In this document: in pieces, positions 11,584 to 14,971 of the stretch | Layout of the letters: each line of letters begins with the position of its first letter | Numbering within the stretch: position 1 is the first letter of the stretch | Notes under the pieces: generated by a model | Database searches by the model: none | The model's input: the letters and a program-made list of their open reading frames with translations, nothing else | What the model was told of the DNA's origin: nothing | Program-made: the position numbers and the translations under genes | Assembly (NCBI GenBank): GCA_016201405.1 | Contig: JACQCZ010000014.1 | Span: 232,631-296,630 of the forward strand | Source: Candidatus Acetothermia bacterium | Lineage (GTDB): Bacteria > Bipolaricaulota > Bipolaricaulia > RBG-16-55-9 | Reading direction: 5' to 3' | Length of the DNA: 64,000 nt

Positions 11584-12765
11584 TTAAAAAACAATTCTCT
11601 TAAACTCGACTTTGTACTGAAGGCCTTCGTGAAGTGACTTTTGAATCATCTCATGGCCATAGGTCAGGTAGACCGCAGGGAAGCCTGTAAAGTCCTGGTT
11701 GTCGCGGTAGGTCATCAGGGGCTTGTGGCCATCCGTGCTTAAGATGAGCGTATCACTCTTCTCGGGAATGCCAAGCCACTCGGCCTGAGCATCGACATGA
11801 ACTGCGGCATATTTCTTCCAGACTCCCCCACCCAAGTGCGGCATCTGCGGCGCTGTCGCTGTGGTCAAAATGACCAAAGGCATGGTAGGAATGACTTCAT
11901 AATTTCTCAAAGCATCGAAGATCTCATCCTGAGGGATGTGCTTTTCACTTGAGTTATATTCAAAAATAAATTGGGCATTCTCAAAGCGGGCGGGCTTCCT
12001 TCTGCCTTCAGAGTCCACGCCTTCGACAAGATAGGTGTACTCTATGTAGCGGTCACGGTGCTCTGGAACGGGCATCTCCCAGAAGGGATGGCCATTTTTA
12101 AATAAATATTCCAGCACATCCGCTAACGGGCGAGTCAGGGCTTGCGAGAATGACTTTTCCGGGACAAATTCAATGCCAGTCAGCTTCAAAAAATCATTGC
12201 GGATGTTCAATATGCGCTGCGCCACATCACCAGATCCGCTGTATTTTTGATAGATGGAATCAATCTGATCGTATCGCTCTCGGAAGGCTTCGATGTTCTG
12301 TTCGGGAGCACTTTTTATGCGATTCTGCCCATCTTTGATCACGGCATTCGGGTCGTATTTAAATTCTTTCTGCAAATGAATGACTCGCTCTGGGTCGAGC
12401 ACAACAGGATTAATGATCACATACTGGATGCGATGGCCTTTGGGCGCGTCGTGCCCTGGATGAAGATTGTCATAGGCTGCATTGAGAATCTGGTCGTCCG
12501 GAATTCCGACACGGCTGGTGATCTTTTTGAAGACGTAATTCCCGTACACTTCATCTATGGCGAGATTTAGGTTTAGATGCGAGAAGGTCGAGATAAGCTT
12601 TGTGCTGCTAAAAAAATCTCTCAGCTCCGGAAAGCGTAATTCTCTGGAATCTTCACCCTGCTGAAGAATTTGTACATTTCTCTCGATGACACTTTGGATG
12701 TCGATTTGACCTGAGGCTTCAATCCCACGGGTCTTCGGCTCTTGGACTGGACAGCTGCACCCCAT
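11584..12765 (-). CDS. Hypothetical protein, unknown family
   Basis: A 393-residue protein that I do not recognise. It begins MGCSCPV, has no signal peptide or membrane helix, and is rich in charged residues. The N-terminal half (about 40-210) looks helical; the C-terminal half contains several beta-type stretches such as MPLVILTTAT and TLILSTDGHKPLMTYRDN. A weak GGAAG site precedes the ATG. It is bordered by the convergent beta-helix gene (20 bases apart) and the divergent rpsT. Its base composition resembles the surrounding core genes, so it looks resident rather than recently transferred. Confidence 0.55.
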   Translation of the reverse strand: MGCSCPVQEPKTRGIEASGQIDIQSVIERNVQILQQGEDSRELRFPELRDFFSSTKLISTFSHLNLNLAIDEVYGNYVFKKITSRVGIPDDQILNAAYDNLHPGHDAPKGHRIQYVIINPVVLDPERVIHLQKEFKYDPNAVIKDGQNRIKSAPEQNIEAFRERYDQIDSIYQKYSGSGDVAQRILNIRNDFLKLTGIEFVPEKSFSQALTRPLADVLEYLFKNGHPFWEMPVPEHRDRYIEYTYLVEGVDSEGRRKPARFENAQFIFEYNSSEKHIPQDEIFDALRNYEVIPTMPLVILTTATAPQMPHLGGGVWKKYAAVHVDAQAEWLGIPEKSDTLILSTDGHKPLMTYRDNQDFTGFPAVYLTYGHEMIQKSLHEGLQYKVEFKRIVF

Positions 12766-12848: not shown

Positions 12849-12877
12849 TTGACACAGTGTAGGCTTCTAGCTATGAT
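12849..12877 (+). promoter_or_regulatory. Promoter of rpsT
   Basis: TTGACA (12849-12854), 17-base spacer, TATGAT (12872-12877). Transcription should start near 12884, leaving a leader of about 45 bases that contains a run of eight T and the AAGGAG at 12915-12920. Confidence 0.75.
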
Positions 12878-12928
12878 GCATGCATAAAAGCTTGATGGCG
12901 CAATTATTTTTTTTAAGGAGTGATAGGT

Positions 12929-13192
12929 ATCCCGAACACAGCATCCGCAAAGAAGCAGGTGCGGCAAAACCGCAAAAGGCGTGAGCGCAATTTGGCTCGC
13001 CGCGATGCCCTCAAGCACACGATGAAGAAGTACAAGAAGGCCATAGCGGCTGGTGATAAGAGCTCAGCTGAGTCCCTCATCCCTGAACTCATGAAGACGG
13101 CAGACAAGGCAGCCAAGGGCAATGTCATTCACCCCAAGAAGGCTGCCCGACTCAAGTCTCGTCTGATGAGGAAATTGCAAGCGAAGCCCTGA
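12929..13192 (+). CDS. rpsT: 30S ribosomal protein S20, apparent ATC start
   Basis: An 87-residue basic protein matching S20 throughout: (M)PNTASAKKQVRQNRKRRERN at the N-terminus, then KKAARLKSRLMRKL near the end. S20 binds 16S rRNA early in 30S assembly. There is no ATG, GTG or TTG at the expected position. The canonical S20 N-terminus Met-Pro-Asn requires initiation at the ATC at 12929-12931, which lies 8 bases after AAGGAG (12915-12920). The only standard upstream start, GTG at 12920, overlaps that ribosome-binding site and would add Met-Ile-Gly-Ile. A rare start codon would fit known autogenous control of S20, which uses UUG in E. coli. Confidence 0.9.
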   Translation: MPNTASAKKQVRQNRKRRERNLARRDALKHTMKKYKKAIAAGDKSSAESLIPELMKTADKAAKGNVIHPKKAARLKSRLMRKLQAKP

Positions 13193-13216: not shown

Positions 13217-14971
13217 ATGAGGTCACTCGCTAATCCTTCTCTAGTTCGTCATAGAAACCGCTGGGAGCTTCCCGCAATCTCGGAAGAGGCCATCCGTCAA
13301 GTCCAGTCCGAACTCAACGTCTCTTCAGCGATGGCACGGCTTTTGGCATTCAAAGCCGGAAAAGGGACCCCGAGATCACTCCTCTCCCATGACATCTCAG
13401 ATCTCAATGCACCTCTACAGCTCCGCGGGTTAGAGGAGGCAATTGCACGGATTGAACTCGCCATTCGCCAGTCTGAATCTATTTTTATTCATGGCGATTT
13501 TGATGTGGATGGCATCACCAGCTCAGCCCTTCTCTATAGGGCTCTCAAGGATTTAGGGGCAAAGGGACGGATCAAAGTCGAGATCGAAGACCGCGACCGA
13601 GGGCATGGTCTCAACGAGCATGTCATCAAGCAGGTCATTGAAGAGGGCTTTTCGCTCGTCATCACCACGGATTGCGGAGTCTCAGATTTCCAGCATATCC
13701 AAAATCTCTTGCAGCACAAAATTGACGCCATCATTACAGATCATCACCACGTGCCCGAGCAGTTGCCACCTGCCGTTGCTGTGATCAATCCCAAACGTCC
13801 AGATTGCACGTACCCAAATTCGGACCTCGCAGCCGTAGGCGTCATCTATCAGACCGTTTCTGCGCTCTACCAAAGAATGGGACGTCAGAGCGATGAGGTG
13901 AGAGGTTTTCTCGATCTTGTCATGTTAGGCACGCTGGGGGATCTTGTGCCGCTCATCAATGAAAAGTCCGTTGAGAACCGCATCTTTGTCCAGAGTGGAC
14001 TCAAAATGCTGGCCGATGGCTGGGGAAGCATGGGCTTGCGAATTTTGCTTGAAAAGCTCTCACTCGATCCAACGCGGCTTACGGCCGGCGAGATGAGCTT
14101 TGTCGTCATTCCCAAGCTCAACGCAGCCAACCGCGTCGGCGACCCGCGGGTCTCATTCTTGCTGCTTACCACATCGGATCGCGAAAAGGCTGATCATTTG
14201 GCCGAGACTCTGCTTCAATATAACTACGACCGCCAGGTCGCCCAGGAAGATCTGCGTGAGCAGGCCGAAGAGCGTCTTCGCGAAGAGGTCGACCTCAAAG
14301 AAGAAAAGATCATCATTCTGGCTGGTCGATATTGGAATCCTGGTGTGATCGGGCTTGTCGCTTCCGATCTGGCAGACCGCCATCACCGCCCTGCGATCAT
14401 GATCGCCAAGGGCGATGAGATGGCCCGTGCATCAGGTCGCAGTATTCCAGAGTTCAACATGATCGAGAGCCTCATTCAGCATGAGCATTTATTTGAGCGG
14501 TACGGCGGCCATTATATGGCTGCCGGTTTTTCGATCCGCAATGACTGGATTGCCCGCCTCCAGAGCGAGCTGGGCCAATACGCCCGCGAAAAGCTGGCCA
14601 ATCTTGAAGCACCTGTCTTCTCGCTCGAGGCTGAAATTTTCCCTCACGAGGTGAGTTTGGACCTCTTTGAAGAAGTCCAACAACTGGGTCCATTTGGGGT
14701 TGGAAACCGCGAGCCCAGATTTCTGCTTCGAAATGTCCGAATCGAAAATATGCGCTTGGTGGGAAATGGCGGGCGACATCTCAAATTGATGGCTCTCGTC
14801 AACGGCTCGACATTCGATGCGATCGGCTTCTCGCTGGGTGATTCATTGGCTGATATCCGCGGCGCAGAACAAGTTGATTTGGTGGTTAAGCTTTCACGGG
14901 ATGACTGGAGTCGCCAGCCAAAGGTCCAACTAGAATTGATTGATGTTCTTCGCTCAGAAGAGAGTAATTAG
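13217..14971 (+). CDS. recJ: Single-stranded-DNA-specific exonuclease RecJ
   Basis: A 584-residue protein of usual RecJ length. DHH-domain motifs appear in order: HGDFDVDGI (about 92-100), TTDCGVSD, TDHHHVPE, and GTLGDLVPL. The DHHA1 domain shows ASGRSI and RYGGHYMAAGF (about 415-440). The final ~100 residues form the OB-type domain. RecJ degrades single-stranded DNA 5' to 3' during recombination and mismatch or base-excision repair. It lies 24 bases after rpsT with no clear ribosome-binding site, and its 3' end overlaps the convergent glycosyltransferase by 4 bases. Confidence 0.94.
   Translation: MRSLANPSLVRHRNRWELPAISEEAIRQVQSELNVSSAMARLLAFKAGKGTPRSLLSHDISDLNAPLQLRGLEEAIARIELAIRQSESIFIHGDFDVDGITSSALLYRALKDLGAKGRIKVEIEDRDRGHGLNEHVIKQVIEEGFSLVITTDCGVSDFQHIQNLLQHKIDAIITDHHHVPEQLPPAVAVINPKRPDCTYPNSDLAAVGVIYQTVSALYQRMGRQSDEVRGFLDLVMLGTLGDLVPLINEKSVENRIFVQSGLKMLADGWGSMGLRILLEKLSLDPTRLTAGEMSFVVIPKLNAANRVGDPRVSFLLLTTSDREKADHLAETLLQYNYDRQVAQEDLREQAEERLREEVDLKEEKIIILAGRYWNPGVIGLVASDLADRHHRPAIMIAKGDEMARASGRSIPEFNMIESLIQHEHLFERYGGHYMAAGFSIRNDWIARLQSELGQYAREKLANLEAPVFSLEAEIFPHEVSLDLFEEVQQLGPFGVGNREPRFLLRNVRIENMRLVGNGGRHLKLMALVNGSTFDAIGFSLGDSLADIRGAEQVDLVVKLSRDDWSRQPKVQLELIDVLRSEESN

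Follow-up and report, generated by a model that had tools for sequence, protein, structure and literature searches.

The window, i.e. the whole 64,000-nucleotide stretch of DNA that was analysed, comes from a draft genome (19 contigs) of Candidatus Bipolaricaulota and carries, on its forward strand, an rpsT gene (12929-13192, with a TGA stop at 13190-13192) encoding an 87-residue bS20 ribosomal protein. The gene is preceded by a putative sigma-70-type promoter (12849-12877, forward strand), identified by consensus scoring against shuffled sequences, in which TTGACA and TATGAT are separated by 17 nucleotides and match 11 of 12 consensus positions; one site of such quality was found versus 0.3 expected in the shuffles, and TTG..-TA..AT-like blocks are present at a similar place in the aligned leaders of relatives, as judged by eye. 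The downstream neighbour, which lies outside the feature discussed here, encodes a RecJ-type exonuclease with an ATG start (13217-14971, forward strand; DHH, DHHA1 and RecJ_OB domains assigned using Pfam). A 393-residue open reading frame adjoining rpsT on the reverse strand (11584-12765) has no Pfam match.

The start region of rpsT reads ...TTTTTTTTAAGGAGTGATAGGTATCCCGAACACAGCA..., and in the S20 frame it comprises TAA (12914-12916), which closes the frame on the 5' side, followed by GGA, GTG (12920-12922), ATA, GGT, ATC (12929-12931) and CCG AAC ACA. As the original prediction had it, the conserved start position is occupied by ATC rather than by ATG, GTG or TTG, and a Shine-Dalgarno (SD) motif, AAGGAG (12915-12920), lies 8 nucleotides 5' of this codon; the 3' end of the 16S rRNA of the same genome is ...GGATCACCTCCTTT (the reverse complement of AAAGGAGGTGATCC). 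The strong promoter then claimed, and the overlap of the sole nearby standard start codon, GTG, with the ribosome-binding site, are likewise borne out. The protein read from ATC gives a near-full-length match to Pfam Ribosomal_S20p (PF01649; profile positions 1-82 of 83, E 7e-24), and bS20 chains of solved structure in the PDB align in the same register, with residue 2 of the query falling on residue 2 of the chain and ATC in the place of Met1. It is the single S20 copy found in the genome.

The closest S20 genes among named records are those of Candidatus Bipolaricaulota/Acetothermia. In a set of 100 genomes from the phylum, an S20 match was obtained in 89, enabling scoring of the start codon in 90 rpsT genes, one genome having two copies. 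The aligned start codon is ATT in 71 genes, ATA in 14, ATC in 3 and ATG in 2, i.e. it is ATH in 88 of 90, with T, A or C as the third base and G only in one family, f9. The codon following ATH is CCN, encoding Pro, in 88 of 88 genes, and the SD core is located 8 or 9 nucleotides from ATH in 78 of them, the match to the 16S end mostly being of 7-8 nucleotides. In 39 of the 88 genes the stretch from the nearest preceding in-frame stop to ATH contains no ATG, GTG or TTG, as in GGAGGTGATCGAGCATT. Conservation in relatives, which the original prediction had raised for ATC together with AAGGAG, thus extends to the SD spacing and to the codon class, but not to ATC itself; the start is non-standard as proposed, though AUC is a minority form in a phylum that mostly uses AUU. 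The proposal that rpsT of the Bipolaricaulota starts at an AUH codon, kept in relatives at a proper SD spacing and with no usable AUG, GUG or UUG, is well supported by these alignments. One genome (G038) has two different rpsT copies (L009 and L037), both with ATT starts, which may be paralogues or may reflect contamination.

The preference within AUH can be compared with ordinary codon usage in family f7, where the rpsT start is ATT in 36 of 36 genes. In an f7 genome (G022, whose stretches read have 68% G+C), 88% of ordinary Ile codons are ATC and 7.6% are ATT, and Ile codons inside the f7 rpsT genes are distributed as 90 ATC, 8 ATT and 7 ATA; because of the relatedness of the species, the comparison is given without a probability. 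The start is always ATT whereas Ile codons are mainly ATC, and the start is therefore unlike an ordinary Ile codon in its behaviour.

In the same genomes infC has an ATH start preceded by a strong SD in 36 of 37 cases, in 27 of which the 25 codons leading up to the conserved domain include none of the standard starts; rpsT thus has the start type of the IF3 gene. In the window's own genome infC (L263:858-1406, on contig C6 of G000) has ATT after AGGAGGT, with an in-frame TAA just 5', and the IF3 protein is intact by Pfam. An ATH start of infC is also present in 20 of 28 outgroup genomes, a result that fits the known infC pattern. The comparison originally drawn with the AUU start of Escherichia coli infC was apt, and infC of the Bipolaricaulota themselves provides a better parallel than does rpsT of E. 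coli. The other ribosomal-protein genes inspected, and the genes around their operons, have ATG or GTG starts; in 25 such canonical-start genes around ribosomal-protein operons of the same genome the median SD match is 5, below that typical of rpsT. A scan for SD motifs alone, over ~0.87 Mb from two genomes, scored control codons as often as ATH. A homology scan of ~170 genes with cross-genome relatives, which is blind to genes with a spurious upstream ATG, GTG or TTG and whose list does not include rpsT itself, gave no gene beyond infC lacking a standard start in its conserved part, and within this scope a general use of AUH starts was rejected; its other matches were dismissed as having a clear ATG further in, as rRNA, or as resembling out-of-frame matches.

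An initiator-type tRNA is present, with a CAU anticodon and three G-C pairs (its sequence being judged by eye). An altered initiator tRNA was rejected on the basis of this anticodon, and AUH would therefore be read with a third-base mismatch. The mechanism that we propose is that the ordinary CAU initiator tRNA would place fMet at the AUH codon of rpsT, which is AUC in the window and AUU in the majority of relatives, and that a long SD would recruit the 30S subunit to a short leader in which no structure is conserved. IF3 would discriminate against the AUH pairing on rpsT, so limiting S20 output at start-codon recognition, with output rising when 30S subunits exceed IF3 and falling when IF3 is plentiful, i.e. 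rpsT would be controlled in the way that infC of E. coli is through its AUU start. In vitro, increasing IF3 leads to less initiation by AUU/CAU and more by AUG/CAU (PMC10158994), and the change of AUU to AUG in infC is given as abolishing autocontrol (Butler et al. 1987, as listed in PMC9845219). We assign a probability of roughly two in three to limitation of S20 synthesis by IF3 discrimination at the AUH codon, as on infC. Direct support is available for the codon, its conservation, the SD, the start type shared with infC and the normal initiator anticodon; from these we infer translation from the AUH codon in vivo and control of rpsT by IF3. The reason for S20 to follow IF3 is not obvious, and constitutive scaling or autogenous control would leave an identical sequence pattern.

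With constitutive scaling, the AUH codon would merely lower S20 synthesis to a level suited to a strong promoter and SD, and IF3 would play no regulatory part; given the near-consensus promoter and strong SD of rpsT, a weak codon would fix the level of synthesis without feedback. However, a weaker SD would be equally effective and easily reached by mutation, yet ATH and a strong SD are retained together across the phylum, and infC carries the same codon class, making this explanation unlikely.

It is less likely again that rpsT is autogenously repressed, with free S20 competing with ribosomes for its own mRNA in a manner enabled by the weak start. Such a mechanism has been proposed for the UUG start of E. 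coli rpsT, but neither an affinity of S20 for its own mRNA nor a conserved operator structure has been found there (review PMC10931766). Thus, of the statement in the original prediction that E. coli S20 starts at UUG and limits its own translation, the first part is correct, while self-limitation is still unproven, autoregulation having been neither confirmed nor refuted (PMC10931766). The leader of the window's rpsT likewise gives no structure signal (z 0.29) and no Rfam leader match, and no covarying leader structure is present in the f7, f6 and f4/f2 alignments. A structured autoregulatory leader, with conserved RNA structure, was accordingly rejected as a candidate for rpsT.

Initiation at the GTG at 12920, giving Met-Ile-Gly-Ile-Pro-Asn, is highly improbable. 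This codon is in frame, and GTG recurs at the same position, 9 nucleotides upstream, in 35 of the 88 relatives, but it begins on the final G of AAGGAG and is not itself preceded by an SD; the recurrence, including that of the window, arises because GTG is part of the anti-SD complement, GGAGGTGAT. Nor is it conserved: 39 of the 88 relatives lack any standard start there, many of them having TGA instead, and in families f2, f4 and f8 the SD, GGAGGTGA, commonly yields an in-frame TGA, so that translation of the frame cannot start further upstream. An error converting ATG into ATC, conceivable in a draft of 19 contigs, is refuted by the 88 of 90 genes without ATG at the start codon, ATH being present in independent assemblies throughout the phylum, including single-contig G020 and G022.

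ATG in relatives, which the original prediction had named as a refuting observation, is seen solely in divergent family f9 (2 genomes, G033 and G073; loci L020 and L134), the only Bipolaricaulota rpsT genes with this start; alongside ATG the second codon is GCN, i.e. Pro is replaced by Ala. In a quick tree of S20 and IF3, f9 falls within the phylum (SH-aLRT 92 and 85), which suggests, with moderate support, a reversion to ATG in this family. By contrast with its rpsT, the infC gene of f9 genome G033 keeps ATC, so any coupling of rpsT to infC is dispensable. Beyond IF3 discrimination on rpsT itself, it may be, though we hold this tentatively and at somewhat less than even odds, that rpsT together with infC makes up a small regulon operating via start-codon discrimination, in which the ratio of IF3 to 30S subunits sets synthesis of both IF3 and S20, the link having originated a single time close to the base of the phylum, with loss in one family.

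Outside the phylum, ATH was present at the aligned rpsT start in 0 of 152 scored genes (64 from a domain-wide sample and 88 scored in a second set, two further loci being unreadable), the start where plain being ATG, GTG or TTG. Verrucomicrobiota and most other distant named matches have ATG, and one from Leptospiraceae has TTG. GTG and TTG are frequent among the outgroup starts (L202-L261, L277-L281 and L352-L441; no exact count is given), and weak rpsT starts seem, from these sequences, to be widespread outside the phylum. E. coli rpsT has UUG, and some other proteobacteria have GUG (PMC10931766); UUG, GUG and AUG are the only start codons mentioned in that review, in which the weak rpsT start as a control device is a question open since the 1980s. 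A preprint of 2020, cited in PMC9845219, deals with genes in which non-AUG starts are preferred and may list rpsT with GUG or UUG. A literature search on rpsT AUU, non-canonical S20 starts and Bipolaricaulota starts, covering few subscription papers, gave no report of an AUH start of rpsT. AUH starts and weak UUG/GUG rpsT starts are each known; the literature searched contained no example of the two combined.

The overall likeness of Bipolaricaulota rpsT to E. coli infC, with its AUU start and IF3 autocontrol, is in the AUH start, the strong SD and the role of the gene in translation; the gene differs, being here that of a ribosomal protein, for which a response to IF3 is predicted. E. coli rpsT is the same gene, also with a weak start codon and its own promoter, but its UUG differs from AUH, which lies outside the ATG/GTG/TTG set and is held by nearly the whole phylum; the AUH start may have arisen convergently as an answer to the same problem of control, as first suggested. 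The pcnB gene of E. coli has an AUU start. It resembles rpsT here as a chromosomal gene with such a start, the second besides infC, but encodes an unrelated enzyme that is not ribosomal.

The finding has a practical consequence, in that gene finders that accept only ATG, GTG and TTG would either shorten the S20 and IF3 genes of the Bipolaricaulota or overlook them; in 34 of the 88 rpsT genes no standard start codon occurs within the next 90 nucleotides. Retention of AUH across the phylum, without leader structure, points to selection on the codon itself, and the ATG of family f9 provides a natural variant for comparison with it. If the proposed initiation is correct, a ribosomal protein would join the very few genes known to start at AUU-type codons, and, if the regulon is real, it would link small-subunit assembly with the factor that acts on that subunit in initiation.
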